Positions 1 to 64,000 of a stretch of 64,000 nt of DNA are shown in pieces. A program made the translations under genes and the position numbers. Numbering within the stretch: the stretch's first letter is position 1; every line of letters starts with the position of its first letter. The stretch lies in contig CAMPDV010000005.1 in the NCBI GenBank assembly GCA_946699065.1, forward strand, positions 1,426,001-1,490,000, in the 5' to 3' direction. The stretch comes from Loxodes magnus (Eukaryota > Ciliophora > Karyorelictea > Loxodida > Loxodidae). A model generated the notes under the pieces. The model searched no databases, was not told the DNA's origin, and saw only the letters and a program-made list of their open reading frames with translations.

Positions 1-70
1 TAAAATCTTATAAATCAATTAAATTATTAAAGCATCATGATGAAATTTTAGAAAAAATTATAATGATATG

Positions 71-97: not shown

Positions 98-147
98 AAA
101 ACTTATATTTCTTTAATAAAAATTGTTAAATAAATAAATTTGATTAT

Positions 148-180
148 AGAGCGCATAGCACATCTTTGGTGCGCAGCTCT
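148..180 (-). repeat. LINE 3' UTR hairpin, copy A
   Basis: An imperfect palindrome: AGAGCGC at one side, GCGCAGCTCT at the other, with TAGCAC/GGTGC pairing inside. It starts 10 bases past the ORF2 stop codon. The same hairpin with its flank TATAATCAAATTTATTTAT recurs at 58592-58625, and a diverged copy lies at 39041-39072. LINEs of several clades use such a 3' stem-loop to bind their own reverse transcriptase; that role is inferred here. Confidence 0.75.
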
Positions 181-189
181 TTCCATATT

Positions 190-5150: not shown

Positions 5151-5200
5151 TAGTCCCAATGCTAGTTTTATGAATCTGTTTCCATTCGTAATAAAGAAGG

Positions 5201-21389: not shown

Positions 21390-22178
21390 ATGCAAATTAC
21401 AGAATTATAAATGTAGCATGAAGAGTAATAACTAGATATGGGGGATCCTCCAATTTATGTAAAATCAACATATGGAAAGATAAAAGGTAATGATATTTCT
21501 AATACTGAGCTTTATATTCCAGAAAGTAATACTTTCAAATTTATTTCAATTATGTGCATTCAGAATAACTAAATTTCATACTTAAATCCTTATTAAGATC
21601 TGTTTGATGAAAAACTGAAGCTAGAAGAAATTCAAAGCATTTTAGGGGAAGCATAAAAGGTAGTTAGCAGGGCTTACAGACCTATTTAATGCGAAAAGAT
21701 AATTTCAAAACTATTGCTTCTAATATCCATTTTAATGTTCCTTATAGGAATTTTATAAACCATCACTAACACTTTTCAATCAAACCAATAAATTCGCTAA
21801 GGAATTTGATTAATTAGCATCTCCTTTTTTGGATGCTTGTTATGGTCTTTTATTTCTTGCTTTATATCTGAATAAAAAATAAAGATCAGAATGGTTGAGG
21901 CTTTAGCAGTTTTTTGCAAGTAAATGAACGAGGAATTATAAAGATTTAATGTAAAAGTAAGACCTGGATATGATGCAGCTTGAATTGAGTTCATTGATAT
22001 GGATTATTTTAGAAGTTAAGAAGCAGATAACTAAACCATTATATCTCAATTATCAGAAGAATATATCCATCTATAAAAGTTTACAGAATAGGAAGATAGT
22101 TGCCTTTCAGCATAGAAGCAAGCATTTAATTAAAATTCAAACAACGCCAATGAAACTTAAATTACACTCAGGCATTGA
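21390..22178 (+). CDS. Two-span membrane protein with two in-frame TGAs, copy 2
   Basis: Copy of 10979-11767. Both internal TGA codons are kept (21807-21809, 21981-21983). A visible difference changes TCA (Ser) to TAA (Gln) in the YIHL(S/Q)KF segment. That change would be a stop in the standard code but is a simple substitution here. Confidence 0.65.
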
Positions 22179-25943: not shown

Positions 25944-26819
25944 TTTTATAAGTAATTTTGTATCTTGCTAATATAATAGAATTCTTTTATTACAACTCTA
26001 TTATAATTACCAGTAAGCATACCTTTAGTCTATAAACTAATAAAAAATATTAACTTTACTAACCATAAAAGTACGGCAGTTTAAATTGAATAGCGATTTA
26101 AAAGCTTAAATGATACTTGAGCTAATTTATTTTCTAGTATTTATAATAAAATAAGGAATCAAACATTCACTTTAAGGAATATCTGTTAATACCTATTTAA
26201 AAACTATTTAGTCTTGATTATTTAAACAGGAAAATAAATTATATAGTATGAGTAAAAAATACTAAAATAGCTCCATTTTCCATTAATATTAGTTAGAAAA
26301 GAATAATTCTTCACTTTTAAATTAAAAAACTTTAAGAATAGAAATTAATAATAAATAGCATTTCAAGTAACTAAGGAAGAATGTTAGTAAATATCATTGA
26401 AGAAAAAATGCTTCAAAGAATAATAATTAAATAGTAAAGGGATTTTATTGAAATGAACTAGCTCCTCTTTTTATATGGAGAATAGATGAAAGCATTTTTA
26501 AAAAGAGCTTTAAATTATTTATCTAGTGAATAAAAAATAAGTAAAATAGACTTTATTCATATTTTGGTAGCGTTATTTTTTAATAGGATACCTTATTTCT
26601 AAGCTTATAGATGAAAATAAAGTGGAAAATAATTTTTTAAAGCTAAATTAATAACGAAATATAGCTAGATCAATGATACGATTAATACTGTTGGTTCTTA
26701 GTACTGTGAGAATCAGTATGAAGAGAAAATGTAGCTAGAAAAGCAAATAAATTTAATTAGAACTATTATATTAATATAAAGAAGCGATAAATAAGGTGTA
26801 AACAAATATAATATTAAGA
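25944..26819. other. Spacer across the right end of the duplication
   Basis: Unit 2 ends at about 26490. Unique AT-rich sequence follows. No gene seen. Confidence 0.6.
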
Positions 26820-30400: not shown

Positions 30401-33400
30401 GCTAAAAGTTGATGGCAATGAATTATGAGCAATTTTAAAAAATTTTGCTTTAACTTATTTAAATTAGTCCTAAGGATATCAAGAAGCTATTTAAAAGGTC
30501 TATAGTGGGTAATTCATAGGAAATTTTATCTCATCATTTTGCTTCTATTATAGAATCCTATCGTGAGCCTGATATAATATTACATGCTTATCTTCACTCA
30601 TTTACTTTGGAGCATAATTTGTTGGATATAATCGAGAATCATAAATTCGACTTTAGTTACTTTTATATAAAGAAGCAATAGCCTGATATTAAGCTCTCTG
30701 ACTGTTACAACAAAAAGCAATTCACTAAGTTAGTAAAAAAGATATTTGGGTGTACGTTCTAGCAAGTAAGCGTTGTTTTCTATCATTTAAAATGAATGGA
30801 AAAGGTACAACTTAAAGATTTCTGTACTTATGCAGATATAGTAATAGAAAATTAAAATGGAGATTGTGATTTTTTAGGTCTAAGTAGAAAATTTCCCCTT
30901 AAAAGAAATAAAAAACTAATCTAATAAGAATCTGAAACTTTTGATATCTTAAAGGTATTCGCTAAATTCTTTGACTCTAATGGAGTGTCTACTATATAGT
31001 ACTATGAAACTCATGGTTTAAGTGCTGACTAAATTTTAACTAAAAATTAGTTCATTTTTAAATTAGCAGATCAAATGAAGGAAGTAAATCAAAAGGAGGC
31101 TGAAAAACTTTTTATCTGCTTAGTTAATAATTCTGAAAATAAAGTACCTGCTTATCATCTCATGACTTGTGTTGACTAACTTAGAAAAAATCCAGTGATG
31201 GAGGAAAATCCAGATTTGCCAACTTGGGCTTCTGACATACGATTTACCAATTAGTCCTTGAACTCCTAAGAGCTTCTGTCATCTAAGCGATAATAAAGTT
31301 CAGATAGGAAAAAGTCAATTGAAAATAAAAATGAATAAATTCAAAAAACTAACTCAAAAATAGAGAATTTTTTGATTTCCAACTCAGATAATAAATAGAT
31401 TAACGATAGGGCAACTGAAAGAAAACCTTCATAACCTTAGATAGTATAAATAATAAAATAGCCTACTCTAAGAAATAAAAAGAACCTTACAGTTGAAGAG
31501 ATTTTGCATGCTGTTGACTTAAAAATTAAAAATAGCAATAAAAATCCCAGAGACTTCTGATATCAAGATTTAAATCTCAGTAACATGGCAGCAAAAACTC
31601 AGTTATTGAAAGCCTTTGAAAATCTGGGACTTTAAATATAAATAGAAGAAATTTCCAATTTCATGCTGCAGCTAAATCCTTAATAACCTACAAAATGTAA
31701 TGTAGAAATGTTTGAAAATTTAATAGAAAAATATTAAGAAAATTTGATCTAAATGGAGTATTTAAATTAAAACTCTCTACAAATATAGAATGCTAGTGAT
31801 GATGATATTAAAACTTAAAGCGAGTCTAGCGGAACTTATGAATCAAGTAAAGCTAGAATTCCTTAAGAGACTTCATAATTAGCAAAGCCTGAATAAAATG
31901 AAAACAGCCTTTCACGAGATACCTAATGAAATTAGCAAGAGTTATTCTAAAGAACTGCCTCAAAGGAAAGCAATTTCAAATTAATTTCAAATTAAAATAA
32001 TTCATTTTCCCAGGGTTAAGTAGATTACTAGGTATAATAGCAAGATCTAGATAGTGAGATTCAAAAAATTTTGCTTCATCTATCTTATAAAATGTAAGTT
32101 AATAGGAAATCTAGAAATGATTTTGGAAGCTTACTCTTTTAAAAAAAAATCGAAAAAAAAAAATTCCTATAAAAATCATGAAATCAGTTAGAAATAAAAA
32201 AGCTTATAACTTAGTCAGAAATCTTAAGGCTTAACGATACTCAAAAAACTAATAAGTTTGTAGAGTTTTTATTTAGAAACTAGAAAAAGGCAAAAGCTCA
32301 GGAAATTTTAGATAACTTTATATAAAATGTGGCTGAATGGAAGGTTTTTGAACAAGAAGATGAAGAAGCTTTAGATGAGCATATAAGGAATATAGTCATC
32401 TAAAACAAGAATAATCTAAAATCGGAATGCAAAAAGTATGATACGCACTAGACAGGCATAATTAATAAATAGGACTTCTTAAATATTGTTGAAACACTCA
32501 ATCTGGACTTTTAGTCTAGTCATTTAGAGTTTTTATTTGTTCTCTTTTATAGCTCTACTGATGATATAGACTCAGTGCCTTATAAAGTAAGTGATTAAAA
32601 CAGGAATTTATGAAAGCTTATGCATACCCATAGAATGAAGACTAAAGCTAGAATAACTAATAGGAAGAATTTTCTTAAAGTAGATCTTAAAGGAAAAATA
32701 GCGATGAATCTTAAAATTAGCAATCAATCATTAGCTAATCTTCCAGCGAAGATGAAGAGGAAAATACGGAATAGAACCAGAGTAGTGAGAATATATAAAT
32801 AACAGAAGAGGAAAGGTAAATAATATTTAATAAATGCATTAACGGAATTATCAACTTTATTCATAAGACCAATCAATAGATAAAAGATCTTTTTCCTGAT
32901 GTAATGAGTGCTCTTTAATTTTTAACCTGTCTACAGAAAATTGGAATTAAAACTTCTGAGCTAGAATTTACTGTCATTTTTAGATCCTTAAGTCCAGGCC
33001 CTGAAGATGACTCTATACAAAGATCCGCTCTTGAATCCATCATTCAATAATATGATTAGAAAAAAAGTTAACCTGCTTCAAGTGATTCAACTCCTTTTAA
33101 TAGGTAACTATTTCATGCAGTGTAATGTTCTCAAAATAAAAAAACTTATAGGTTATGGACAACAGTTAGTTTTAATTCTAATAAACATAGGAAAATCAAT
33201 CTCAGTAGAGTATGCAAAAGTCTGTAGTATCTTCACAAAAGACTGAGTCAGAAAGCGACTAAAGCTTCAGCAAAAGTAGCAGTAACAGTGAAAGTGAAAC
33301 TAATAGGTAGCAAAATGAAAATGAGTAAGATAGTAAAATTAACCAGCAAGAAAATCAATACTCAGATTAGGTAATTTTTGACATATAGTATTCGTCTTCT

Positions 33401-35911: not shown

Positions 35912-36781
35912 CTAATGAAAGAAAATAAAAACTCGGTATATAGGAATGTACCTTGTGATTAAACCCACTTGCTCGTATTACTTGAATTCACTGAATCTTG
36001 TTACCTTTAGATCATTTTCTGCAATTTATTCTTTTATAACTGTAGTTCAAACTCTGGTAGTTTTTTGAATTCCATTGAAACTATAAATGCATTTCCAAAG
36101 GCCTACACTCGAAACAGTATGTCCAATTTTGTCTTTACATATGGGACATACAGCATTTAATTAAACATCTTGAATTAGCACTAACTTTTCAACAACTCCT
36201 CTATTGAATACTACAGGTTAATCGTAAGCTCTACAATCAGAATTTTAGCAAATACCTAAGTAGTTAATTCCAATATTCACAGTTAACTAACCTAAACTAT
36301 AAGGCTTTTAATATTCTGATAGCTCTCCCTTTTAAATGGGAAAATAGCCCTTTTCATCTTTAGTAAATTTAGGAAATATTACTAACTAATCGCCATCATC
36401 TCACTAATAGTCTGAGATTTATCCCTAGTACTCAAGAATGACATGGTCTTTACCTCGAACAGGTTTATAGTTTGTATAGGTTCCCATACAAACATCAGAT
36501 ATCAACTTTTAAACTTGCAAGTCACTTTTATATTCATTAAACTATCCATGAAACACTAGATTCCCATTAAGATTATCTTAAGTTATAGTTAAGTAAATTT
36601 ACTAAGTACCACGAGCCTTAATTTGTTTCTAAACTACTTCTTATTATTAAAGATTTGAGGTAACTTCTGCTGTTTTAATATCTTAAGTTGCTACTTTCTC
36701 TTCATACTAGTTAATCTAAAGGGGAAGAATTTGATCTTTTTTCTATTATTTTACTTAGTTTTAACCACAACATGAACCCAT
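35912..36781 (-). CDS. Myristoylated-type CPxC-domain protein
   Basis: 289 residues if it stops at the TAG-TAG pair (35912-35914, 35909-35911). It begins MGSCCGQNQ, a dual N-myristoylation/palmitoylation signal, so it is probably membrane-tethered; an ATG one codon earlier exists. A Gln-rich segment is followed by a beta-rich region and a C-terminal zinc domain: VCPICKDKIG, then GLWKCIYSFNGIQK, then V-W-TTVIKEQ and FSEFKQYEQVGLI. This matches the CPxC/GFxxCxY/W pattern seen at the end of many protist ubiquitin-system and F-box-like proteins. Two TGAs fit Trp: codon 127 (36401-36403) and codon 245 (36047-36049); the second is at the conserved Trp. No TGA stop is available nearby. Confidence 0.75.
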
Positions 36782-37471
36782 CATTAAACAGTTTCATTAA
36801 GAGCCTAATTAAATACAAAAATCAAGATATTCTACTAAAGCCTTCTAATTAATTAGTTAAATAGCCAAAATTAGGTAATTCAGTAGCTTTAATTCTTTAA
36901 TGATTAATAGTTTTATAACTTTAGTTATTTAGTGAGTTGATAGTTTACTCTCATTATTAGAGACATAGAAGATATCATTAAAACTAATACTTATAAAACA
37001 AAAGCAGGTGATCTTTAATCTAAGAGTCAAGATTGTAAAGTGATGCCATGAATACATTGCAGATAATAGTTTAATTAGCAAATTACTTTTGTTAGGTTTC
37101 GAAACAAATTTAGATTTCACAATTATAAATTTTCACTTTGTATTATCCTTTACACTTTTATAAGATTTTATCATTTATTTACAATTCTTTGCTATAAAAC
37201 ATTAGGAGAAAAAATATCTTAAATTCAATAGATAATCGCTGTTTAATTTAAATATTACATTTACATAATTTAATTTTTTTAGCTGAAGATAAAATTCCTT
37301 AGCTGATTATAAAAATAAATTAGAGCAATGCATTATTAAAGCTCACTATTCTACATATAGTCAGATTTATTCTACATAGTTATTCTTAGAAATGCTATAG
37401 TGATGAAAATAAAAAGGAAAGAAGGTTAAAGGAAGTTATTATTAAATAAGTTTGTTAAAAATTAATGAAAA
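36782..37471. other. AT-rich spacer
   Basis: About 690 bases between two minus-strand genes. It probably holds the promoter of the CPxC gene and the 3' end of p24. No gene seen. Confidence 0.6.
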
Positions 37472-38326
37472 TCATATTATCACTCTGTTGTCTAGTAACC
37501 TTTTAATATAAAAAACTTGCCAGGCACTAAGGCTGATAATCACAACGCATTCTAAAAAGGTGAAAAGGAAAATATTCTTATTGGCGTCTGCTATGGTTTT
37601 AAAATGAGATTCATGCCTTATTTCTGAAAATTCGATATCTACCCACAAGTCTTTCATTACTTTATCAACATCAAGTAATCGCTCTTCAATTGGTGTTAGA
37701 TGTTTTTATTCTAAGAGTTCGTCTGATGAGTTACCTGCGTGAATTGCAAAAGTTACATGAACTTCTTCAATGAAATTTGCATTATATAATTTAATCTCAT
37801 AAAGTCCTGGTTTAGTTGCCTCAAATCTAAAAATGCCCTCCTTCTTTTCATTTTTTTTAAATATAACAGTTTCTTTTTATTTTATTTCGATATTAATGGC
37901 TTCCTTATCAGAACTGGATACAAACCAGGCTCCTCTTACTATAGATGGAACATTCTTTATGTTTTGTCCAAATGTTTCTTCAGTGCGAGCTGGTATAGCA
38001 ATCGTTATTAAGTCTGCAGGTTCAAAATCTGACATTTTCATTTCCCATTCTTCACTTAATAATTTATAATCATCTGAATAAATAACATTTTTATCTTCTT
38101 CTTCCTTAGTCTACTTACTCTGCTAGAATTTGCCCTGAAATTATGCTGAAGAATCTTTCTACCTTTAAGTTTGTTCAGTGTTTTATACTTATGGATATTC
38201 TGCTTGAATTTCGTTCTCCAACTGCTATTTATCAATTTCAAATGGATCTTCTTCTTTCTTAGCTTTGCATTCTAAATTCTTTATTAAAAGGAAAACTATA
38301 ACCAGCTTTAAGTATGAAATCTTCAT
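37472..38326 (-). CDS. p24/EMP24-GOLD cargo receptor (TMED family)
   Basis: 284 residues, no intron, stop TGA. p24 proteins cycle between ER and Golgi in COPI/COPII vesicles and select cargo. A signal peptide (about 1-21) is followed by an unusual acidic, Gln/Lys-rich insert of about 65 residues. Then comes the GOLD domain (IFRFEATKPGLYEIKLYN, VHVTFAIHAGNSS), the membrane-proximal helix with LLDVDKVMKDLW, IRHESHF and NKNIFLFTFLECVVI, one membrane span, and the short tail FYIKRLLDNRVII. The tail keeps an aromatic residue, basic pair and hydrophobic C-terminus typical of p24. The family is usually 200-230 residues; the extra length is the insert. Confidence 0.93.
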
Positions 38327-38720
38327 TTTTAATAAAAATGAATGAACCATAAAATTATTTTCGTTTATTTAATTTCGAAAAAAGTAAATCAGCCAGATAT
38401 TATTAGACTGCTTCATCTTAACTATACTAAAATACTACAAAATTGTAATTAATACATTCAAAGTGAAGATTCAATAGAAATATATTATTTCATAGATGAC
38501 ATAAATTAGATAAGAGAATCTGGAAGTCTGAGCTCCTTCTCCTCTGTTATAGATTCTATAAGTTTATTTAAATATAAAATTTAGTTTCTTTTAAGTCTTA
38601 AATAAGAAGGTGAGTTTATTCTATAACCTTTACTCTAATTAAAGTATTAATAATCCTTTTTATATAATAGCTAATTGTATATCATATCTTATATTATACA
38701 AATTACAATGTAAATATTTC
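38327..38720. other. AT-rich spacer
   Basis: Upstream region of p24. No gene seen. Confidence 0.6.
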
Positions 38721-45479: not shown

Positions 45480-46286
45480 TCATTAGTTAGGATCAAATGC
45501 TTGATTTTGTTCGTTTGTTTTTCTCCTTTTAAAGGGTTCACTAGGAAAATCTTGATCTTGAATTGTCTTGACTCTGCGTTACTAAAATTTCTATTCTTTT
45601 TCTTTTTTATCTACTTCCATATTTAGCATATGTTCTCTAATCTCATAGGTTGTTGTTTTACTTGACATTTTAGCTGAATTTTATGCCGATTTTTTGCTTT
45701 TGGGATAATTATAACTTCTTTGGTCTTCTTCTTACTACTTCTTATATTTACGCTTTCCAAATATTTTAATTACTTAGTCAAAATCTTAGATATCTATTTA
45801 ATCAAGATCAATTTTATTAGGATATAGCTTCTCGAGAAGATCCTTCAATTCTGGTTCTCAATTTAAAGCCTACTATTCCTATGTTTTTTCTTCAAGTTCG
45901 CTTTCATATTTTTGCTTTATTCTTTATATATTCTGAAGCGATTTACTTATTGTAGATTGTATAAATTGCTAGATCTACTCATTAGCAAACAATTTTAACC
46001 CATAAAATTCCTTTTGCTATACTTACATTTTTTTAACCTAGTAGAATTCTTCTATATTTTAGACTAATTTAGTAAGATCATCTTTCATAACTGTTAGATC
46101 ATGAAGGCTGATCTATCCTTGTTATAGTATGATTTACTCAAGAACGTAAATTAAAGTCAGAACTTCAAGTTCGCTCATGTCATGCTTAATTATAAATTTC
46201 AGAAGGGATTGATCATCTTCATTGTTCTCCTTGCAAAACTGATGCAATATGAATCTAGTTGAGTATTTCATTTTATAAGCTGACAT
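45480..46286 (-). CDS. Coiled-coil protein with basic C-terminus
   Basis: 268 residues, stop TGA (45480-45482). The N-terminal half is helical (MSAYKMKYSTRFILHQF, FIIKHDMSELEVLTLIYVLE). A central coiled coil is followed by a basic, Lys/Gln/Ser-rich tail with SKKSAQNSAKMSS and EPFKRRKTNEQNQ, which could act as nuclear localisation sequence. An in-frame TGA (45858-45860, codon 143) fits Trp in ALN-W-EPELKDLLEKL. It is divergently arranged with the large gene at 46725, sharing a 438-base upstream region. Function unknown. Confidence 0.75.
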
Positions 46287-46724: not shown

Positions 46725-49700
46725 ATGGAAGAAATTAACCTTAATGAGAACTAAGTTTGTAACACTGAAGAGGCACCTTTCAATAGTGATCTTGTTCTTA
46801 ATTATAAATAATTCAGCGAAGATGGCTCTTCTCCTAGAGCAAGCGTATCTAGCACTTCTTAAATCATATATACCTTAAAGTAAGACCTCACTTAAAAGCA
46901 GATACTTAGCTCTTTGTAGATAACTTCATAAGAGAATGACTAAAACTAGACTTAAAATTACGAGAAGCAGATGAAAAAGCTTAACCTTATGCTTTCTAGA
47001 CTAGAAGTTTAGGAAAAGAACCCATTCGAAGTGGAATATGGTAAAACTAAATAGCAACTTAATGACTTCAAGACAAAGCTAAATGAACTCATAGGGAGTG
47101 GAAGTAAAGAAAGCTAATAGCCTTTTTTTAAAGACAGCAGTTTCGAATAAACAGTTTAATAAATCTAATTCAAGGAGCTAGATAAACCAAAGCGCAATCT
47201 AAGAGCTAAATCTAGCGAAGCGACAAAAAGAAAGAAATTTTAAGAATTCTTCTAAAATAATGAAGCTTAAAATTCCATTTACAGTGAATTATCTAATCCA
47301 GAAGAAAGTTAGGATGTAAATAATATTTATAACTAGGTTTCGCAACCTCTTGGGACAACTTTTAGCTAAGAAAATATCCAGCAAGCTAATAGTAACCTTA
47401 CATATAATGTGAAAAAGATTGAGTGCTAAAAAATAATTAGAAAGGATACTATTAGAAAGAGAGATAAAAGTTAAAAGGATTAATTCGAGTAAATTTTTTA
47501 AAACTGGGAGGATTTTCCATATATGTAGAAGTAGACAAACTTTAGCAGGTCATTTACTTCTAATGATTAAAAAGAGAATAAGAAATTGTCTATTCAGTAA
47601 ACAGTCAAAAGATAATCCTAAAAAAAGAAACTTAAATGAAGCTAAAGCTATAAAAGCATAAAAGAAGTTAAGGATTAATCATTAAGTCCTTTTAAATTCT
47701 ATAGATAGCATTCTTTATCTTAACTCTCAAAACAAGAAGTTAAATCAGATGAAACTCGTTCAGAAATTTTCGAGTAGCTTAAATAATAAAGAGAAAGAAA
47801 GGATTAGCCAAAAACAAGAGAGACAATAGTCTAAAAGTCGTAAATAGAAGTACTTGAAGAGGAACTTAACAAACGAAAGTAAGAAAGGATTAATAAAAGA
47901 CGAAATCAATTAAAATAGTAGAAGGAAAAATTTTAAAAAAGCGAAGAAAACATTTTCCAAAGTATGGAACTCGAAATTTAAGATTCTAGAATGAATGCTT
48001 AAGATGTAGCATATTCAGCAAATAGCATTCAAATAAAAGACTAAATAAATTAAAAATAGCAAAGTTAAGAGCCATTAGTTTTGGTACAAGAATAAGAATA
48101 AGAATAAGAATAAGAAAAAGAATTAATGCTAGATAATCTTGACTTAATTATCTAAAATTAAAAGAATAAGTTAGAGCAAATGAGAAATAAAAGGAAATAA
48201 AACCTTTAAATTCTTAGAGAAAGTAATTCTAAAGAAAAATTAATAGACCGAATTAAAGAGGAAGAACAAACTTAGCAGATTTCAAATGAACATCAAAACA
48301 AAAAAAGAAACGAACCCATAGAGTAGAACATAGATGAAGTGCAATCTTCATAAATAAACTAAGATAAACAAAATAAATGCAAGGATAAATAATTTAACGT
48401 AATTATAGACAATAGTGATAATCAAAAAATATAAGAAGGAAAAACCATTAATTGTAACTTAGTTCTAGAAGCAAAGCAAACTTCTTACATTATGGAATAG
48501 AAAGAATAAAATGAGAAAGTTTAGAATAGCTAAGATCAACTGAATGGAAGTTTAATAAAAGTAAACATAAAAAGTAAAAATAATCAGATGAATAGTTAGC
48601 AAGATAATGCTGCTGACTAAAAAGAGAAATTAACATAGGAATTAGCACAAGAAGCTACATAATTCAGTAATGAAAAACTAAAAGAAATAAATAAAGCTAT
48701 AGAAAATTAAGCAGTCAAACCTTTTAGCAAACAATAGTCAGTCTAGCGTAGCATTCTAAAATTAACTCATAATAATGTATCTAATCCTGTTCTATCTGAC
48801 TCTTAATATAAGCAGATATAAAAAATACAAGTGAAACAGTAAATTAATATGGATAAGAACAAAAAGCAAGATTAAAAGAAGTAAAAATATTAAAAAGAAT
48901 AAAAGCAGCCAATTTACTAGTAAATAATACAGTAAAATTTAAAGAAATGGAAAGATAAGTAGATTAAAAGATAAAGATAATAAAAAGATGTATTTAAGGA
49001 AACTCAACAAAGCAGTCCCTTAATTTCCACTTCAAGCCTTTAAGGTAATCCAACAGAGAGCTTCAATTCTATATTAAATTAAGAAAGCAAATAGTGATTG
49101 CTGGGACTTAAGAAAGAGCTATAAAATATAGAATCCTTTCAAGAAATTCAGTCCAAAGTTGATTAAAAAAAAATTGACTTAAAAAATGTGGTTGATAAGG
49201 TAATGGCTCTTGCAGAACTTTGTGATCGTAATTCACCTATGCAAAATAATGAAAGCAGATATTAGCAGATTTTAAATAGTCAATTTAAGACGAACGAAAG
49301 TACTTATAAGGAATAAGAAGTTCGCTTAAATAGTATTTAAAACAGAAAATTTTAGCCAATTTTCAACGGTAGAAGAAATAAGTCAATGGATATTTAAGGT
49401 CATAGATAGAGAGCAAATAACTATATAAAAAAGAATGCTACTCCAACACCAAAATCTCAACTTAATAAAAGTTAAAATTTCTAATCCAGATAAGATGGAT
49501 ATAATTAAAGCAAACCCTAGCAGATAAAAAGAAACAAATCTGAGTAAAATTTATCATTCAAAGATAAGGTTCTCTCAAATTAATAAGGAGCATAAATTAA
49601 TTAAGTTCCGTAACAATAAATAAATCAAAATTAGATTAACTATCTAAATAAAAATCCATCTAGCAAGAAAAAAAACCAAAATAGCAAGACATAGCGCTCC

Positions 49701-51465
49701 AAAACTTCAGTTATTCAGCAATATTTAAATTAAAGAATAAAATAAATCTAGTAACGTCAAGCTGAAGTTATTTCAGAAAGCTTCTATGGAGGAGATATTT
49801 AGAAAGAGCACTTGATCAGCTCATTAAATTCTGTCAGAGACAAAAATATCATTTTAAACCTCCAATAAAATTAGTCTTTCGAATCAGATTCTCTCTTTTT
49901 GACTCAAGTTTCTGGAAGGGAAACTTAGACTCAATAAACATTGGAGTTAGACCAGTTTACATCAAGTGAAAACTATAAAGGTTAAAGTGAATCTAAGTAA
50001 TTATTTGGATATTAGGATCAATCTTTACTTTAAACTGAGTAAGCAAAAAAAAGTCTAAATTAGGGAACTCCAACTTTTTCATTAATGAAATAGTAGATGA
50101 AATACTTGAAATCTGAAGGTTAAGTTAATATGTTTACTTCTTAAAGCTTAATTTAAAATAATGATACTCAGGAAAAAACTGAAACATCTATCAATCCAAA
50201 AAATTCTTTGAATGATTAATAGGAAATAGTCTCTTCGTGAACAACTTAAGGTAGATCAATAACTCCTTCACCAATCATTACAAAAAACAAGGATAAACAA
50301 CAAATCTTGCCCTAAAACGAAACTGATGAATCAACTTAAAAAATGTTAATGCAAGAATGGAAAGAAAGCAAAGCGAAAAGAACTGATCTTTTGTTCACTC
50401 TCAGTGCATTTGTATCAGATTAAAGTTTCTAAAATGAACTTTAATAAGCTTTCTTATCCTAGCAGTAAAACTAGAAGTTACTCGAGGCCTTTTATGAACT
50501 ATTAAAAGATAAAGGCTAAAAAGACTAGCAAAAATAGTTTGAAACTGAATATATAAATAGATTCGTTACTAATATAAAATAAGGGTTACATTCATATCAA
50601 AACTTTGTAGAAATTTTACATGTCGATAATGTGTCAAAAAAGAGGGTTAAAAAATTCAAGGAAAAACTTTAAAGTTTCAAAGATGAGTATTAATTCTAAA
50701 TTTAATAAGACTGTATCAATAAATTTTTATAGGTTTTTTATAAACTTCAGCCGTTTCTTGAAAATTTGTTAGAGATAAAGCAGAGTGAAAAGGCAGCCAA
50801 GTTGTTTAAGAAAATGTTCAAAAAAAAGGGAAAACTATATACATAAAGATCATAAAGTGTTATGAAGAAACCCAAATATAAATAAATTCTAGTAAATAAG
50901 AATAAAAGCAAAAGCAGCTTCTCAAATTCACAAGCTTTATCAATAAATTAGTAAGACAGTTTGCTTAACAAATAAACAAGTGCTGTATAAGTAAATCAAG
51001 CTTCTCGTAGTATTTCTCCTAACTTCAATATGACTCTAAATTTAGATAGTAAAAGGATATCTTTCAAAGAATTTATGAAGGTAAAAATATTCCAAGAGTA
51101 TTAGCAAGTATAAAATTTAAAGTGCTAAGAAAAGAATCAAAGAGTGATAGACGAAGTTGCCAGAAATAGAAGTGTTGCGAAAAGATTTACATGAATTGAA
51201 GAATACCAAAAACTAAAGGTAATTTACTAACTTACAGAACAAATCAAAAAAATTAAACGTCGAGCAATATAAAAATGAGCAAAAATTTATGGAAATTTTA
51301 AATTCAGTTTGGAAGTTAATAAATGAAGATATAAGATAATGAAAGTCAACTAAAAGAATATTATAAATGCATGGAAATATTCATTAGGATAGAAAGACAC
51401 TTTTGGAATTCCTTATGAATAACAGTATGAGAGACGAGGTTGCAAGCATCGAAGATCTGTATTGA
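46725..51465 (+). CDS. Very large Gln/Lys-rich protein
   Basis: 1573 residues with one 19-nt intron; the spliced length is exactly 1574 codons. The protein is strongly polar and rich in Gln, Lys, Ser and Glu, with several coiled-coil stretches, a short EQEQEQEQE repeat near residue 463, and a more ordered C-terminal part from about residue 1210 (LLFTLSAFVSDQSFQ, INRFVTNIKQGLHSYQNF, VFYKLQPFLENLLEIKQ). It ends RKTLLEFLMNNSMRDEVA and then SIEDLY. Four in-frame TGAs fit Trp: codons 791, 1172, 1490 and 1533; the last is only 41 codons before the stop. Long Gln runs are encoded mostly by TAA/TAG. No known domain was found; a cytoskeletal or RNA-granule scaffold is possible. Confidence 0.8.
51219..51237 (+). 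other. 19-nt intron with TACTAAC
   Basis: GTAATTTACTAACTTACAG. It contains a perfect TACTAAC, the yeast-type branch-point consensus, 5 bases before CAG. Removal restores the frame KNKSKKLNVEQYKNEQKF through to the final TGA. Confidence 0.75.
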
Positions 51466-54059: not shown

Positions 54060-57000
54060 ATGAGACATACTGGCATAGTTTTCCTGAGTGTGATTCTTCT
54101 AATGATCACTCCATCTCTGCAGCAAGCCGGAAAAGAATTAAATATATGGAAAGCAAACTTAATCCCAAATTTGAGCTAATTGAGTTTATAATAAATAAGA
54201 GGTTTATTTTCATAAGTAAGGAATGATATTTTTGCCGATATGAAAGCAAATTTCACTGCTTATTCATCTCGAAAAGAATTCTTGTTAACTCATATTCCTT
54301 AGTAGCATGCTGCTGAGGTCAGAAATCAATTTGTAGCATACGAGCAAGATTATAAAGCAGCTGAGCATATTATTCTAGCTATAGAATAGGAACAGTAAAT
54401 TATTAAGCAAACTTACAAAACCGCACCAGCTGAGTACGAACTTAAAAAGGGAGAAATACTTAAGTTGGTACCAATTAACGTGAGATCTTTCGTAGAATCA
54501 TAATTTTTAGCTATTGAAAAGTAAGCTCAGAAGGAACTTAGTGCACTACCTGTAAATGAAACTCAGTAACCTTCAGGCACAGAAGCATAACCTATAACAC
54601 CAACTCCAACTACTCCTTAGCCATAATAGCCTGTTAATCCTTAACCTGCTCAAACATAGCCAACATCTTCAGAAGAACTAGATGCTGTAATGCCATAACC
54701 ACCACTTCCATAATAAGCTGAATAAACAACAACTCCTTCTACTGAATAAAGTTAGACAACAGAGCCAGTCATGCCATAAGCACCATTAGTAGACTAGACA
54801 ACAACTTCTGAATCTAATTAAAATTAAGGAAATGAACCAACAATGCCTAAACCATAGGAAGTTGAAGTAGCAACTGGACCAGCATAAGGTCAACCAGAAT
54901 CTACAACTTCTACTCCTCCAGTTTAGGAGACTTAAAAGCCTGCTAAAGATGCTGTTATGCCAAGTAAACCATAAGCTGAATAAACAACTCCTTCTACTGA
55001 ATAAAGTTAGACAACAGAACCAGTCATGCCTAAACCTTCATAAGTTAATTCAACTTCTTCCTAAGGCTCAACAACTGAGTCAGTTATGCCTAAACCTACT
55101 TAAAGCGAAACTAAAACACCTACCACTCCATCAACAACATAACCTAGCTCAAATACTACTGTAACTACTCCAGTAACAACTCCAACTACTCCAGTAACGA
55201 CTCCAACAACACCAGTAACAACTCCAACTACTCCAGTAACGACTCCAACAACACCAGTAACGACTCCAACAACACCAGTAACAACTCCAACTACTCCAGT
55301 AACGACTCCAACAACACCAGTAACGACTCCAACAACACCAGTAACGACTCCAACTACTCCAGTAACGACTCCAACTACTCCAGTAACAACACCAGTAACG
55401 ACTCCAACAACACCAGTAACGACTCCAACTACTCCAGTAACGACTCCAACTACTCCAGTAACAACTCCAGTAACTCCAACAACACCAGTAACAACTCCAA
55501 CTACTCCAGTAACGACTCCAACTACTCCAGTAACAACTCCAACTACTCCAGTAACGACTCCAACTACTCCAGTAACAACTCCAATTACTCCAGTAACGAC
55601 TCCAACTACTCCAGTAACAACTCCAGTAACAACTCCAGTAACGACTCCAACAACACCAGTAACAACTCCAACTACTCCAGTAACGACTCCAACAACACCA
55701 GTAACGACTCCAACTACTCCAGTAACGACTCCAACTACTCCAGTAACGACTCCAACAACACCAGTAACAACTCCAACAACACCAGTAACAACTCCAACTA
55801 CTATGTAAGAGACTAAAACTCCTGGATAAGAAGCTGTTATGCCAAAGCCAACACAATAAGAATAAGTGTCAACTACTGAATCAAATTAAACAACAGATCC
55901 AGTTATGCCAAAGCCACCATAGTAAGAATAAACTACTTCTAAAGGAGAAAGCCAAACAACAGAACCAGCTATGCCTAAACCTTCACAAACTGAATCTTCT
56001 ACATAGTAACCTGCTACAACACCCCAATCAAGCGAAGTAACAACACCTGCATAAGAGACCAAAGCTCCCGCTTAAGATGCTGTAATGCCTTAACCACCAG
56101 TTCCAGAATAAACAACTCCATCCACTCAATAAAGCTAGACAACAGAACCAGTCATGCCAAAAACTTCATAAGGATAGCAATCTTCAACCACTCAACCTAA
56201 TCCAAGTCAAGGAAAAGAACCTGTAATGCCTAAACCTGTTCAAACTGGAACAATATCTACAGCATAACAACCCGTTTAATAGCAAAGTCTTACTAATGAA
56301 ACTACATCTTAAAATTAAGCAATTTCAGCTACACAGCAAACAGAGTAAGCTACTAATCAAGTTGATCAAGACGCTGGAGTGTCTAGTGAAGCAGGAGCAG
56401 AAGTAGAAGAAGTTGAAACTGAAGTAGAAGAAGTTGAAGTAGAAGAAGTTGAAACTGAAGCAGAAGAAGTTTAATAAACTGATGTTTAACAAAATTCAAC
56501 AATAGTAACAGTTATTGACTAATAGGTTGATGAGGAAAATGGAAATGAAAGAGAAGAATAAGAATAAGAAGAAGTATAAACCGAAGAAGATGAAGAATGC
56601 GAGTGTGAAGATTGTGAAGATGATGATTGCGAATGCGATGATGATGAATGTGATGATGATGAATGTGATGATGATGATGATGATGATGAATGTTAAGAAT
56701 AAAATGAAGAAAGCGATGAAGATTAATAAGAATTTTCTTTATGGAATTCAATCGATATATCTAGCAAAGAATCATAATTATAAGCTCCTGTAAAACCATA
56801 ACCTGAGTAATAAGAATCAGAAACTGCTGAAGTCGAACCAGTTGAACAAGAAGATGCTACAGAATAGACGGAAGCTGCTGAAACATAAGAATAGCCTGAA
56901 CCAGCTGAAGAGCACGTCATGCCAAAATCTTTACCTGTAGAACTTACTGTATCTGAATCTTAAGAACCTATAGTTTAAAATGAGGTGTAAACTGAAAATT

Positions 57001-57346
57001 AATAGCAACCAACTGAAAATGTAATGCCAAGAGTTTAGCAATAAAATGTTTAAACTCTAAAAGCTCCATAAGAAGGATTGAATATGATGTCGGCCAATTT
57101 ATTCCTACTTAACAGTAATTTTTTAATTCAGGTGACACTTTATTAGAAGGTGAAGCTGGAATAGAAGGTTTTTCGAATGGCCTTCACAATTCATATGTAG
57201 AGTTATTCACTTTATTACAAGTTTTAGGCATAGTTTTCTTACTATTCGCCTTTTACTTCGTTGGTAAAAAGATTATAACTCAAAACAAATCCTCCTAGAG
57301 TGATTTTCTTTACGAAAAACTTCTTGAATACAACGAACGCCCTTGA
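54060..57346 (+). CDS. Mucin-like type I membrane protein with Thr-Pro repeats
   Basis: 1089 residues after removal of one 17-nt intron, stop TGA. A signal peptide (MRHTGIVFLSVILLMITPS) is followed by a helical ectodomain of about 160 residues. A long Thr/Pro/Gln region follows, with recurring EPVMPKP or DAVMPQP motifs at intervals and a block of TTPVTTP heptads (55140-55800). Then come acidic Glu-Val repeats, a striking Asp/Cys segment (CECEDCEDDDC and onward, 56600-56695), more VMPKP motifs, one membrane span (about residues 1035-1057) and a short tail ending KLLEYNERP. Thr density suggests heavy O-glycosylation at the cell surface; the Asp/Cys block could bind metal. Both are inferred. A ciliate surface or cyst coat protein is possible. 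Confidence 0.85.
55140..55805 (+). repeat. 21-bp minisatellite coding TTPVTTP
   Basis: About 30 copies of a 21-bp unit (and shorter truncated units) that encodes alternating TTPVTTP. Unit variants differ at ACA/ACG/ACT Thr codons, so the array is old enough to have drifted at silent sites but stays in frame. A long open minus-strand frame across it is a repeat artefact. Confidence 0.9.
57115..57131 (+). other. 17-nt intron
   Basis: GTAATTTTTTAATTCAG. Removal joins SANLFLLN to SDTLLEGEAGIEGF and brings the transmembrane helix and cytoplasmic tail into frame. Confidence 0.85.
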
Positions 57347-57592
57347 ACAATTTTATTTCATTTCATGCTTAAAATATAATTTCAAATTATCTTATTGTAT
57401 TTCCATTAAAAATCATCTATTTTCATTAATTACCTAGTTCTTATAGCATACTACCATTTATTAGCATTACTATTAATCTTATTTTTATTTCCCTCTTTGC
57501 TAGAAAAAATATTCATAAGACTCTTGATATCAAATTTTAAGTATTTTAATTACTTTTTTAATTTAGTATTTGTCCTTAAAAATTGGGAAGGT

Positions 57593-58210
57593 ATGCCTGA
57601 AAATAAGATAAAAAGTTGGTTGAATTAATTTATAGAGAAATAATACAATATAAACTTACTTAAATCTCTCTTTGCTAAACTCATATGTTTTTATTATTAT
57701 ATAGCAAGAAATAAAATTATCATATCATATATTAGTGTTGGAATTATTGCTAATAGCATCTTTAATTGTTAGCTATTTTACAGCTTAAAATAGAAAAAAT
57801 CTTAAAAAGGCAAGCAGAATGAAGTTTCTTATGAATGCAAAAGTAATAATAAGGAGCCAACTATGATTTAATACCTTTTTAGTTTATATTTTTAGACTTT
57901 CTTTATGATATCATCAACTCTTCAGAAGGCTTAAAAAGGATATGAACTATATTAAAAACTAGCTTCAAAGATATTCTATATGATACTATTTAAATTAAAA
58001 AACCAAAATTAAAGCTCTTATTACAAATACCTTAATATGCTAAATCAAGCTCATGCCTATAAATCTATTCAATTAGTCTAGAGTAATCTGGCTATTTATA
58101 TTAGTGCTTCTTAATATTTAAGCATTAGAAATATAGGTGATAATGTATCAGTGACATAAGTTAAAGTATTAGAAGAATAAGGAAAATGGTTAATAAGTTG
58201 TAATCATTGA
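57593..58210 (+). CDS. Hypothetical membrane protein
   Basis: 205 residues, no intron, stop TGA (58208-58210). The N-terminus MPENKIKSWLNQFIEKQ leads to LLKSLFAKLICFYYIARNK and a membrane segment (IIISYISVGIIANSIF), a polar loop with SQKGKQNEVSYECK, a second hydrophobic part (MIQYLFSLYFQTFFMISS), and a soluble C-terminal domain ending NIGDNVSVTQVKVLEEQ and GKWLISCNH. The layout recalls small organelle inner-membrane assembly factors, but I could not assign a family. Confidence 0.6.
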
Positions 58211-59031
58211 AATCATTATAAAATCATTAATACTGCTTGGCTTATTTGCTTCCATTTGCTGCTTAGTTTAGCTTATAAATTTGCATTTACTTTCTATATA
58301 TAAATTAAAACTAAATCAGATTGACTATTTATTAGAATCTTTATCTGTATATAACAGTATGAAAATTAGAATCTGTAAAGCAGATTTGACTGTCTAATTT
58401 ATCTAGAGGAATGAACCAAAAGTATTAATTTTTTAGATTTAAATAAGCTTAACGAAGAAATAAAAAGGAAAATGAACTAATTAATAAGCAATGGATTTAA
58501 GCATAGTACATCTATGATATTAAAGTAATAAAATACCCTAATTAACCATATAAAGCTTAAAGTAATAAGCTATAATAATAAATTATTATAAAGAGCTGCG
58601 CACCAACGAGGTGCTACGCGCTCTATAATCAAATTTATTTATGATAGAATAAATCTTAATATGCACCACATTTTCAAATTATAGTTAAATAAATCAACTA
58701 TTTAGTCTTAACCTTAATTAGCTTAATTTTAGCTTTGCCATTTGCAAATATAAATTTATTAAAAAAGCATAATGTGATTGAATGAAGGTTCCTATTAAAA
58801 TACAAATATATTAATAGCTAAATTTAAGCCTTTGTATAAATAAAAGGTGCAAATCAGGCACATTAAGGTATAAGAATATATTTATTTTGCCCTCTAATTG
58901 AAATATTGAAATATAAAGGTAATAAAACTAGTCTTAGATAATTATTAATTGATGGGTTTGATACGTAGTAAAGCAGTTTTTATAGAATTGAAATAGATTT
59001 GAAATAATTATAATTATACTAATATTTTTAA
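58211..59031. other. AT-rich spacer with a LINE tail
   Basis: Contains the copy C hairpin at 58592-58625. Otherwise no supported gene. Confidence 0.55.
58592..58640 (+). repeat. LINE 3' tail hairpin, copy C
   Basis: AGAGCTGCGCACCAACGAGG and the rest of the palindrome, then CTATAATCAAATTTATTTAT, the same as the 3' end of the 120-5200 LINE but on the plus strand. No LINE coding sequence precedes it, so this is probably a strongly 5'-truncated copy of some 60 bases. Confidence 0.7.
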
Positions 59032-59532
59032 ATGTAGCAGATAAAAATACCCCAATAAAATCCAACGGAACAAGTTTCGGAATTGACAGAACTTATTAAT
59101 GGAGACCAGGGAAGCGATTTATAAGAGTTTGCATTTAAGTTTTAGAAGTTACGCAAGCAGGCAGTAAGGAATTCCTTTTAATCTGAAAACTTTTGGAAAA
59201 CATTGGAGTAGTATGTGCAGTCAAATCCTTATTACTATAAGAAAAAAGATGTTTTACAAAAGTTCAAGACAAATACTTAGTACATTTATGAGGAAAATGT
59301 TCTCCAATACTACTAGAATTATCCAACAATAACAGATCCTATTCAATGAAGAGATGTCAAGTAAATATGAAACTTGAATCCAGACAGACTATTTATTCCA
59401 AATTATGTCGCAAGCAGAATTTTAGGAACAAAAATGCATGAGAAATTGATAAAGTTGAACAACAAAGAGTAGGAAGCTTAGAATGTCGAAAAATCAGAGG
59501 AGTTAGAAGATTTAAGATCTCTGCTTGTATGA
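59032..59532 (+). CDS. Hypothetical soluble protein
   Basis: 166 residues to the first TGA after the body (59530-59532); a second TGA follows two codons later (59539-59541), so the exact stop is open. The sequence includes NFWKTLEQYVQSNPYYYKKK, YEENVLQYYQNYPTITDP and NPDRLFIPNYVASRILGTK. In-frame TGAs at codons 106 and 113 (59347, 59368) fit Trp in PIQ-W-RDVKQI-W-NLNPD. No known family. It lies 355 bases upstream of the PP2A gene on the same strand. Confidence 0.7.
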
Positions 59533-59886
59533 TTTGTTTGAAAAAACTAATAATTAAGTTTAGCTAATTATGTATCTTTAAGATATCAAAGTATTCTAAT
59601 TTTAAAATCAAATTTCATCATAAATTCAAGCCTCTTTAACAACATCTTATTAGAAAATAATCAGTTTTAAGAATAAAATTTCATAGTTCAAGTTATAGAT
59701 AAATTCAGAAATGCTCTTTAAATATAGAAATGAATGAACTAAGTATATTCTTACGAAGTGTCTCATTTTATAGGTATAATACTTGTCAGGATTTTCTCTG
59801 TTGCAAATTATGCTATAGGGTATAAATTAAATTGACAAACTTTTATCTGAAAATAAAAATTTGAAATTTAAGTTAGTTTTTATTTA

Positions 59887-61612
59887 ATGTCAGGAGATAG
59901 TTCTCTATATTCGATAGCAGTTCTAATAGACGAATTAAAAGCAGAAGAATCAGGTAAAAGATCAAACGCATTGAAGAATTTGTGCACTGTTGCGTAGGCT
60001 ATAGGGCATGAAAGAACACGCCAAGAACTAATCCCCTATCTTACTGGTATTTTTTAATTCAGAACTGATGGATGATGATGACCAAGTGCTCATTCAAATG
60101 GCAGATACCCTATCCCAATTCATACCATACATTGGAGGAAAGTCTTATGCTCACCTTTTACTAGAACCTCTAGAATAACTCTGCCATATAGAAGAGACTT
60201 CTGTCAGAAATAGCTCCATCTCTGCTCTTAAAAAAATCTTTAAAAGTGCTCCTGAAACTGCATAAAATCAGGGATTTTAATTTATCTAAAAGACTTTTCA
60301 TGAGCAATGGTACACGAGCAAAGTTACGGCTTCTAATTTAATTCCAACTACATTTGAGTTAGTAAACAGCCAGAAATAAATGGAGCTGATAGAAATTCTT
60401 CTTTCTTTATCTAAGGACATCAATCCATAAGTTCGAAGGGCTGCAGCTGTCAGCCTCAACGAATTAATTTCCTTTTTAAATTAGGAAAATTAGACTTAAT
60501 TTGGTAAAATCCTAGAAATTCTTTGTAATGATGAGTAAGATTCAGTTAGGCTCCTAGCAGCTGAAACTTCAATAGAGATGGGAAAAAAACTAAAATTATA
60601 AAAGAGCAGTGTTAGCTTAATGCCATAGGTAAACCAATTAATTGAAGATAAAAGCTGACGTGTACGATATGTACTAGCCAGCAAAATATGCGACTTAACA
60701 ATAATAAGTAATTATTCTATTATTTTGCCTATTTTCATCCGCTTCTTACGAGATGTTGACGTTGAAATAAGGACTGTAGCCAGTTAAAATTTAGCAAAGT
60801 TCTGTAAACTTCTCCAAGTAAACGAAATTATATCCCAAATATTACCACAACTTCAAGCACTTACAAAGGACTAATAGACAATTAGAGCTGCGTTAGCTGA
60901 GAATTTATGTGAACTAGCGCTTATCGTGAATAAATAGTAGGCTAATGACATAATCTTATCAATTTTGCTTACTCTACTTAAAGATGATTCTCCCGATATA
61001 AGATTCTGCGTATTAAATAATCTAGACAAGTTGGATTAAGTAATTGGCTTGAATAGCTTAGAGTCGAATATACTTTCTGCAATCAGTGAAATATCTGAAG
61101 ATAAGAACTGGAGAGTTCGATTGAGTTTGGTGGAAGTATTTCCTCATATAGCAAAGTAATTGGGTAAGAAATTTTTTGAAGAAAAGCTATGTCAGTTTTA
61201 CTTAGAGTGGTTAGAAGATTCAATATTCGCTATAAGACAATAAGCTATAAAAATACTTAAAGAGTTATATAACATTCTTGGAATAGATTTCATTAACTTG
61301 AAAATTATGCCTAAGCTTTTGGTTCTCTAAAGCTTTACTAACTATCTTTATAGGTTAACTATTCTTTTTGCTATCTTTGAATTGGCTGAGGTTTTGCCAT
61401 AAGAATATTTAAAAACCTAAGTATTGCCGCTTGTAAATTAACTCAGCACAGATTCGGTACCCAACGTACGCATGAATTCTTGTCGTTGTCTGGGAATTAT
61501 TGGTAGAAGATTAAATGATCCGGAAATAAAGTAATAATTATAAAAGTTAAATCAGGATGAAGATATTGACGTTAAGTACTTTTCAAAGCTTTCTATTGAA
61601 TCACTCACTTAA
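59887..61612 (+). CDS. PP2A 65-kDa scaffold (A) regulatory subunit
   Basis: 569 residues, a HEAT-repeat scaffold that holds the catalytic and B subunits of protein phosphatase 2A (589 in human). One 16-nt intron. HEAT blocks are plain: GGKSYAHLLLEPLEQL, EETSVRNSSISALKKI, PQVRRAAAVSLNELI, EDKS-W-RVRYVLASKI, EDKNWRVRLSLVEVFPHIAK, VPNVRMNSCRCLGIIG, and the final DEDIDVKYFSKLSIESL. The Trp of EDKSWRVRY (human Trp257) is TGA at 60656-60658 (codon 252), while the Trp of KNWRVR is TGG. Homology ends at SLT, followed directly by TAA (61610-61612). No TGA occurs in any plus frame for about 400 bases beyond, so TAA is the probable stop. Confidence 0.95.
60047..60062 (+). other. 16-nt intron of PP2A A subunit
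   Basis: GTATTTTTTAATTCAG. Removal joins LIPYLT to ELMDDDDQVLIQMADTL, the expected first HEAT repeat. Confidence 0.9.
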
Positions 61613-62927
61613 ATTTAATATGGATAATATACACTTTTCGCTTAACAATTTTAACTTCACTAAACTCTTTCCAATTATTACCTCTATCAATCACTTTTTT
61701 CTATTTTATTGCATATAATAAAAGCTAACTTTTAAATAGTAAAGCAGCAAAATCCCATCTATAAATGCAAAAATCTCTATTAGTTTAGATCCATCAAAGA
61801 AAACAGGAATATACTATAAATAGCATTAATCAGTATCTATTTAATAGTAACTTTGTCGTTTATCTTTCTGGATTTTTATTCTTGGAATAATTTTTCATAT
61901 TTAAGGCAATTAATAAAATGCTAAAAGACTACTGCTAAATTTAAATAGTAAGATCCTTTTTTGGTTTTAATTCATAAATGTCTCTTAATTAAACTAAGCC
62001 AAAAGCTTTTAGTATATACATAAATTATTTTGATGATAATAGTTTAATTAATAGATACAACTACTTACCTAACTTATAGTTTAATGCTTGGATTGTATAA
62101 TTGTGGAGAGATAATTATAGTATCATATTAAATTATAGTAGAACAATGCTTTATTACAGTTATAAATATGTTACATAGTTGTTTATAGTTCATTCTTTAT
62201 TCTATTAATCATTTATATATACTACCATCTTCAGCTTTTAAAGTTATTACTTATATCACAACGATAAATTCTTCAGTTAGTTATTTGCCAAAGCTTTATT
62301 GCCTTTTAGTTGTGCACTATTCATCTCATATATATGGAAGTTATAATACTGTCTTGGAAATATTTTTCTAAGCTGTTAAACTAGAATTTTAGCACAAAGA
62401 AAGCAATAATTTTGAATCTAAGTTTCAGGTGATGTCTCGTTAATATAATAGTAATTACAGAATAGTTAGTAGACTAGCACTAAGCCTTAGAATATTAAAG
62501 ACATTACTATTATACTAAATTATTAATATAATTAAATTAGTTATGCATCATCATTTGCAATATTATTTAGATAAGCTAAGCATTAAGATTCTTAAGCAAA
62601 TCATATAATTATATAAGTATAAAGTTAATCAAAAACTCCTATCTAATTGATTTAACTTAGCATTAAATTCATTAAAATAAGAGCTTTGCATTGCTATTCT
62701 TAAAATTTAACCTCACTAAAGAATAATTAATGTTAATACTTTGAATATGGTAAATGAAGTACTTAAAAGTATAAAGTGTAGAAGATTAGTTTTTGCATAA
62801 ATTAAGAATGTTATAATTTTTTGTAGGATGTACAATGCTACTCTCTCCAACTGCTCAATTTCTTCCTCTACTATATTTCATATGGAGCACTATTTTAAGC
62901 GTTAATTCCATTAGATTGCATAAAGTT
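61613..62927. other. AT-rich spacer downstream of PP2A
   Basis: About 1.3 kb. The first TGA in any plus frame after the PP2A homology is near 62030. No gene supported, apart from a possible C-terminal extension of the next gene (minus strand, about 62820-62927). Confidence 0.55.
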
Positions 62928-64000
62928 TCAAAGTCGCTATTTGCTACACTTATAGCATTACCATCCTGGCTTACAGTTTTAGCAATATTTCTAATATTAC
63001 AATTTACTCTACGCTGTTTTCATGATGTTAATACAGTTAATCTCATTATTTATAGCGCTATTTTATATACCTTTTATAAATGAAGTTGATGATTACTATC
63101 TTTGCTTTATTTACTTGTGTCCTTGATCTTCAGTAAAGCTTTTATTAATCCGGGTTTGAAACGGTTAATCGCTAGATATATAACTTCTATTCCTTTCTTT
63201 GAAGTTTTAGATTTTAAGACATTAATCTCTATATTTTTTTAAGAAATCTTCACTATAATCCTTCTTAGGGGTATCCTATCTTGAAGTATTTAAGCTTAGA
63301 AGACTTGAATTAAAAGATTCGTTAAGCATTGAAAGCTTTTGCTCATTCATAAGTGTGGAGTTTGCTTGCATCTTCTAGTTAATGTATATTAGCGCTCTTG
63401 GTGTTACTTTATTCTAAGAAGTATTATGAGCAGGTGAGCAGAGAAGCTTTAGTGAATTTAGTTTTTTCAATGTAGATTCTTTTTCGTTAGTGAATAACCT
63501 TTCAGTTTTATTAGGTTCAGTTACTAAATGCTCCTTTAAAACATGCTATATTTACTATCAGGATTCAGGAGATTTACATAACCTAAGATTTTGTTCTTCA
63601 GTTGAAATAAGTCTTGTATTTCTACTTAGAATAATAATGGCTGGCTTAATACCTGCAAAAGGATTTCTATTGTTTTGTATGATTACTGGAGGAATTATTA
63701 CAGCACATTTGCATTACTCAGAGAAGAAGCCATCTAGAATATAGAATTTATCTTCCTCTACATTCTCCATATACTAAGTTTCAGACTCATATTATATGGT
63801 TAAAACAGGATCATGAAGTAGCATATACAAAGTTAACTTAAACAACTTCTAAATCGCTTATACAAACTCTTGGGACTAAGTAATTGATATAAGCTACTCG
63901 AACGACTATTGCTAAACAAGTTCTTTTACATTACTCAAATACAAATCCAAAAATTCTTTTTAGTCTTAGAAGAGGAAAATCTTTTAGGAATAATCTTGGA
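62928..64000 (-). CDS. Hypothetical protein, cut by the window edge
   Basis: A minus-strand frame open from the window end to TGA (62928-62930), about 357 codons. It has one earlier in-frame TGA read as Trp (SPES-W-QQIQHV). Segments include FVQAIQKLFKLTLYMLLHDP, YILDGFFSEQCKCAVIIPP and NPFAGIKPAIIILSRNTRLI, which alternate like a beta-rich OB-type fold. A Ser/Lys/Gln-rich linker and a Cys-containing end (YCQNCKPGWQCYKCSKQRL) follow. If TGA at 62928 is Trp, the frame continues NFMQSNGINAQNSAPYEIQQ with no further TGA nearby. Function not assigned. Two plus-strand frames opposite are shadows. Confidence 0.65.

Follow-up and report, generated by a model that had tools for sequence, protein, structure and literature searches.

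The DNA analysed here, hereafter the window, is a stretch of 64,000 nt. It is AT-rich (26.5% GC) and looks gene-like once both TAA and TAG are read as sense codons. On its plus strand lies a gene whose predicted product is identified, by a full-length HEAT-repeat match to PR65, as the scaffold (A) subunit of PP2A. The features of this gene are the following.

59887–60046, plus strand: exon 1 of the PP2A scaffold (A/PR65) gene, start codon ATG 59887; supported by its translation and by the human PR65 alignment, which runs from residue 5
60047–60062, plus strand: predicted 16-nt GT..AG intron, GTATTTTTTAATTCAG; required by the frame, homology unbroken across it
60063–61609, plus strand: exon 2, ending on the final codon ahead of the presumed TAA stop; Pfam matches to HEAT (3.4e-35) and PPP2R1A-like HEAT (1.6e-14), phmmer E ~4e-118
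60656–60658, plus strand: in-frame TGA (codon 252), which aligns with human Trp257
61610–61612, plus strand: TAA, likeliest stop of the gene; followed in the same frame by TAAs at 61616 and 61625, with no TGA before 62648

In a phmmer search against the PDB, with X placed at the TGA, query residues 2–565 aligned with residues 5–583 of human PR65 alpha (E ~4e-118), and 221 of the 564 aligned residues were identical to human PR65 (2ie3_A). Like the human protein, the product would be a HEAT-repeat protein, of 569 codons here versus 589 residues in human. The two differ at Trp257, which is a TGA codon here, and in the human KEWAHAT motif, the Trp of which is replaced by Phe (TTC). No relatives of the gene were found in viral contigs.

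The rest of the window was annotated by six-frame Pfam scans of 26400–54301, 57200–64000, and 9000–13800, supplemented with the minus strand of 1–6800 and ten chosen frames. This yielded PP2A, citrate synthase, GH20, and emp24, together with lesser HEAT-type matches to PP2A and three matches below the cut-off (endonuclease fragment PF14529, NRN1, and AraA_central). PDB searches with four other frames returned nothing usable (one match, E 0.41), Rfam gave no match in the window at the gathering score, and ARAGORN, run with bacterial settings, detected no tRNA in the 64,000 nt. Two de novo coding scans performed poorly, the PP2A gene being absent from both final sets. The gene map comes from a third coding scan, trained on frames already picked, one of which (37472–38330) had been supplied out of frame.

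Three further features were seen. A 10.4-kb direct tandem duplication (5637–16083 and 16058–26494; 99.2% identical, with 52 mismatches and 19 gap openings) contains the citrate synthase and GH20 genes. The divergence of its copies is near the heterozygosity of ~0.6% given in excerpts of the Loxodes magnus genome paper (PMC11441545), so the copies are possibly two haplotypes joined end to end by the assembler. On the minus strand, a long region at ~150–5200 carries a weak endonuclease/reverse-transcriptase-type match (PF14529, below the cut-off) at ~2.9–3.2 kb and many in-frame TGAs in the scanned frame; it is probably a non-LTR retrotransposon, perhaps a degraded one. Finally, a low-complexity, GC-richer coding-like frame at 54234–57077, with a 21/42/63-nt tandem repeat at 55163–55802, shows no TGA at the end of its coding signal.

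The in-frame TGA at codon 252

The preliminary description, made from the sequence alone, had proposed that TGA 60656–60658 occupies the position of a Trp of the PP2A A family, and the phmmer alignment bears this out, as the X is placed opposite human Trp257. The eight neighbouring residues, EDKS on the 5′ side and RVRY on the 3′ side, are all identical to human PR65; the PDB relatives behind this comparison are nearly all mammalian-type A subunits. The homology said to continue for over 300 residues was likewise recovered, extending 313 residues beyond codon 252, up to query residue 565. Trp occupies 5 of the 564 columns in the aligned human PR65, and the corresponding codons here are three TGG, one TGA (codon 252), and one TTC; the chance of a random in-frame TGA falling on a Trp column is ~0.9%. 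On sequence comparison, Trp is supported as the best reading of the site. In a two-sided automatic coding test, which left out the second tandem copy and the low-complexity gene, only 5 out of 1698 TGAs passed, and the PP2A TGA failed: its own frame was the best on both sides, with a downstream score of −1.3 versus the threshold of 3. The claim for PP2A therefore rests on homology and not on coding score.

With an ordinary ciliate code (NCBI table 6), the PP2A TGA would have to be a peculiarity of one gene, being spliced out as a mini-intron, bypassed by programmed readthrough, or decoded as selenocysteine. The predicted 16-nt intron in the same gene speaks for the first of these. However, nine GT..AG spans of 12–120 nt include the TGA; the smallest, at 49 nt, would put the sequence out of frame, and the sole frame-keeping one (69 nt, 60609–60677) would delete a conserved motif. 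Thus, no plausible mini-intron takes out TGA 60656, and the escape by splicing that the preliminary description had allowed for finds little support. Against selenocysteine, the homologs have Trp at this residue, not Cys or Sec, and in-frame TGAs occur in other gene models too, which does not fit an exception in one gene. We give very little credence to this explanation.

Also very improbable is that the TGA reflects a sequence error, the true base being G (TGG), or that the gene is a decaying pseudogene. A dead copy would also explain the missing terminal TGA, as no TGA stop is present where the PP2A homology ends. On the other hand, the sequence has kept 221 of 564 residues identical to human PR65 with no frameshift besides the one 16-nt intron, and decay should leave more damage than this gene shows. 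A lone sequence error at TGA 60656 is made less likely by the in-frame TGAs of the other models.

The end of the PP2A gene

The PP2A homology ends at codon 565, and both the coding score and the GC content fall at ~61600 (GC 0.326 in exon 2 versus 0.24 across the following 150 bases). The first in-frame TAA after this point is at 61610, and the next in-frame TGA, at 62648, lies 1,038 nt beyond it. There is no GT dinucleotide between 61577 and 61738. When all GT..AG introns of 10–80 nt with donors at 61480–61800 were listed, each one ended either at an upstream TGA (61558, 61567, or 61597), which as a stop would remove conserved C-terminal residues, or at a TGA no less than 421 nt beyond 61610. 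One 17-nt candidate intron, 61546–61562, was rejected since it deletes LNQDEDIDVKYF, which matches LTQDQDVDVKYF of human PR65.

As no usable TGA lies near the end of the homology, either in the direct frame or through the listed introns, TAA 61610–61612 appears to be the likeliest stop. Sense TAA occurs 21 times inside the PP2A frame, and TAA may thus be dual in this gene, serving both as sense codon and as stop. The preliminary description overlooked that TAA, and not TGA, apparently closes the gene itself. It is conceivable that the stop at 61610 is a single-base sequence error, with a TGA seen as TAA. The karyorelict survey by Seah et al. in 2022 reportedly noted a possible use of UAA as stop in a small minority of transcripts.

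TGA, TAA and TAG in the other gene models

The following models were used for the comparison with the rest of the window.

59032–59529, plus strand: gene model lying 5′ of PP2A, two in-frame TGAs (59347 and 59368), stop TGA 59530–59532; no usable homolog
27415–32589, plus strand: long coding frame of 1725 codons, 5 in-frame TGAs versus 28 expected by chance; no Pfam or PDB match
46725–51344, plus strand: long coding frame of 1540 codons, 6 in-frame TGAs versus 25 expected by chance; no Pfam match
45486–46286, minus strand: gene model in which coding signal flanks an in-frame TGA (first base 45860); ends TAA-TGA
7481–8974, plus strand: citrate synthase, no in-frame TGA; stop TGA 8972–8974 (codon 498), PDB alignments ending at residue 483 or before
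13925–15532, minus strand: GH20 beta-hexosaminidase, no in-frame TGA; stop TGA 13925–13927, 17 residues after the best PDB alignment stops
37472–38326, minus strand: emp24/p24 family protein without in-frame TGA; stop TGA 37472–37474, 6 residues beyond the Pfam match

TGA had been described as the stop of most other genes in the window. This part of the description stands for five of the ten other hand models, namely citrate synthase, GH20 hexosaminidase, the emp24/p24 protein, and two unannotated models, which were chosen for having a TGA where their coding signal or homology stops; in the three annotated genes the TGA stop comes 6 to ~20 residues past the end of the homology. The remaining five are less clear: two long models get to a TGA (33428 and 51463, respectively) only via inferred introns, one model ends in TAA-TGA, one has a TAA followed by a TGA 12 codons on, and in one no TGA lies close to where the model appears to end. 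A possible 43-nt GT..AG intron was noted by eye at 51345–51387, toward the 3′ end of the 46.7 kb gene; beyond it, the frame continues as far as TGA 51463. On the minus strand, the model at 35987–36784 has two in-frame TGAs, with the next in-frame TGA ~70 codons past its apparent end; either termination at TAA, as in PP2A, or an unseen intron might explain this. An Sfi1-like Trp repeat considered for the 46.7–51.3 kb gene was dropped as insufficiently regular.

The eleven hand models comprise 6393 codons, among which there are 18 TGA, 39 TGG, and 222 CAA and CAG codons. Sense TGA thus makes up 0.28% of codons in models that are mostly without a homology anchor. Only one of the 18 in-frame TGAs, that of PP2A, is anchored by homology, and the other 17 are in hand-made models without relatives. 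With 5 TGAs against 28 expected by chance, and 6 against 25, the two longest frames look coding yet use TGA. The PP2A TGA is therefore probably not alone, and TGA read as Trp is probably common in the window, with the models other than PP2A supporting rather than proving a sense TGA. As the preliminary description had put forward, one codon probably has two meanings here: the Trp257 alignment argues for TGA as Trp and the clear TGA ends for TGA as stop.

TAA and TAG are clearly sense codons, occurring 500 times in the 6393 codons, and they are probably read as Gln. In the PP2A and citrate synthase alignments, Gln was found in 7 out of 38 TAA/TAG columns versus a background of 3.5% (5 out of 21 for CAA/CAG), and the TAA columns alone (n = 29) had Glu in nine and Gln in four. 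When TAG was translated as Gln or as Glu, the Pfam scores were 453.8 versus 452.1 bits for citrate synthase and 252.4 versus 250.7 and 32.1 versus 30.6 for GH20. For TAA, Gln scored above Glu with GH20 (252.4 versus 249.0 and 32.1 versus 26.7 bits with Pfam, 206.7 versus 203.3 with the PDB) and with PP2A against PR65 alpha in the PDB (341.5 versus 339.7 bits). The two were near-level for citrate synthase (453.8 versus 453.7 bits) and emp24 (104.9 versus 105.1 bits), and Gln fell below Glu in the Pfam matches of PP2A (PPP2R1A-like 57.7 versus 61.7, HEAT_2 83.5 versus 86.5, and PDS5 56.3 versus 63.4 bits). On balance, Glu seems the weaker reading of TAA; Gln for both codons is the published reading for NCBI table 27, to which the scores lend modest support.

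In the five genes with a clear TGA stop, the final 20 codons (100 codons in total) contain no TGA, no TAA, and three TAG, where 2.6 TAA and 1.3 TAG are expected at the rates of the same genes outside their last 20 codons (p ~0.08 for zero TAA). The TAA average over all models is higher and is dominated by two Gln-rich genes. A depletion of TAA before stops is thus only suggestive in this small sample of five genes. For L. magnus, excerpts of the genome paper describe a depletion of UGA and UAA, but not UAG, in the ~20 codons before the stop (PMC11441545).

These counts also bear on a Condylostoma-type code (NCBI table 28) in a heterotrich, in which all three stop codons would be sense in the body of a gene and stop near its 3′ end, and which would leave the Trp reading of the PP2A TGA unchanged. 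It would account for the apparent TAA end of the PP2A gene, and an intron of 16 nt is of heterotrich size (15 or 16 nt). However, in the terminal 20-codon stretches of the five models with a TGA end, TAG was found three times against 1.3 expected, a small sample, while C. magnum depletes all three stops near gene ends. Sense TGA, at 0.28% in mostly unanchored models, also exceeds the 0.042% of C. magnum and the 0.120% of Parduczia given in parts of Swart et al. (PMC4967479), and none of the models has a clear TAG end, though TGA partly guided the choice of ends. Accordingly weighed, this alternative is unlikely, if far from negligible.

The genetic code and known systems

We consider it probable that the window is nuclear DNA from a ciliate whose ambiguous code is of the karyorelict type (NCBI table 27). 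Four things were observed directly: the TGA aligns with Trp, no credible intron covers it, genes elsewhere apparently end in TGA, and PP2A has no TGA close to its end. Table 27 is consistent with the sense use of TAA and TAG, the Trp and stop roles of TGA, the very small intron, the low number of genes, and the presence of a frame resembling a retrotransposon. Judged by its code, the size of its intron, and the style of its genome, the source is probably a karyorelict, either Loxodes or one of its relatives, with a heterotrich akin to Condylostoma as the less likely alternative. As counterpoints, strictly TGA-only stopping would leave the PP2A gene without a stop, and its 16-nt intron is below the L. 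magnus mode of 17.

With the karyorelict-type code, TAA and TAG would be decoded as Gln and TGA as Trp inside coding sequence. According to the published model, TGA would terminate only near the 3′ end of the mRNA, where termination beats translation. The PP2A TGA lies 317 codons before the end of the coding sequence and would hence be read as Trp, and the PP2A message probably ends on a TAA that would serve as an occasional, context-dependent stop. For decoding by the ribosome, for the role of proximity to the transcript end, and for TAA as stop we infer from published work on relatives. We give about even odds to the further proposal that both TGA (Trp/stop) and TAA (Gln/stop) are dual in one genome, with TGA as the main stop, and that the PP2A gene displays both at once.

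The PP2A gene, itself strongly conserved, cleanly exemplifies a codon with a double meaning, and shows why the choice between Trp and stop must fall to the place of the codon in the message and not to its identity. For gene finding, translation with table 6 cuts the PP2A protein short after residue 251, and a TGA-only stop rule with read-through at 60656 adds ~346 residues past the apparent end. The dual-use code of the window is already published, table 27 having first been printed in 2016, which the preliminary description missed, as it did the probable frequency of TGA as Trp here; what appears mildly new is one gene with an apparently dual TAA alongside a dual TGA.

According to Swart et al. 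(2016), UGA means Trp or stop depending on context in both Condylostoma magnum and Parduczia sp.; UGA as Trp was tested by mass spectrometry and ribosome profiling, termination was favoured near transcript ends, and C. magnum depleted all three stops near ends (PMC4967479). An earlier single-cell transcriptome study, to judge from excerpts, treated karyorelicts as plain UGA-stop users (PMC6935857). Excerpts of the L. magnus genome paper assign karyorelicts to table 27 with UGA as the only stop, and report introns of mostly 25 bp or less, with a mode of 17 nt and a negligible number below 16, as compared with 15 or 16 in heterotrichs (PMC11441545). Dual-meaning stop codons are listed for Karyorelictea, Condylostoma, and Plagiopyla in parts of a PLoS Genetics article (PMC11687900).

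As far as these sources go, the window resembles the table 27 organisms (Parduczia sp. and Loxodes magnus) in its sense TAA and TAG, in TGA as Trp inside genes and stop at their ends, and in a very short intron. The large L. magnus genome, described in the same excerpts as rich in retrotransposons and repeats (PMC11441545), is also consistent with the few recognisable genes and the endonuclease-type match at ~2.9–3.2 kb. The difference from table 27 lies in the apparent TAA end of PP2A, in contrast to UGA as the only stop in the L. magnus text. With Condylostoma magnum (table 28, PMC4967479, in part) the window shares TGA as Trp and stop and TAA as Gln and, apparently in one gene, stop; in C. 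magnum, however, TAG is also a stop, the three codons are depleted near ends, and sense UGA is rarer (0.042%). If both TGA and TAA are indeed dual, the code would lie between those of karyorelicts and Condylostoma, with TAG as the sole fully reassigned stop codon.
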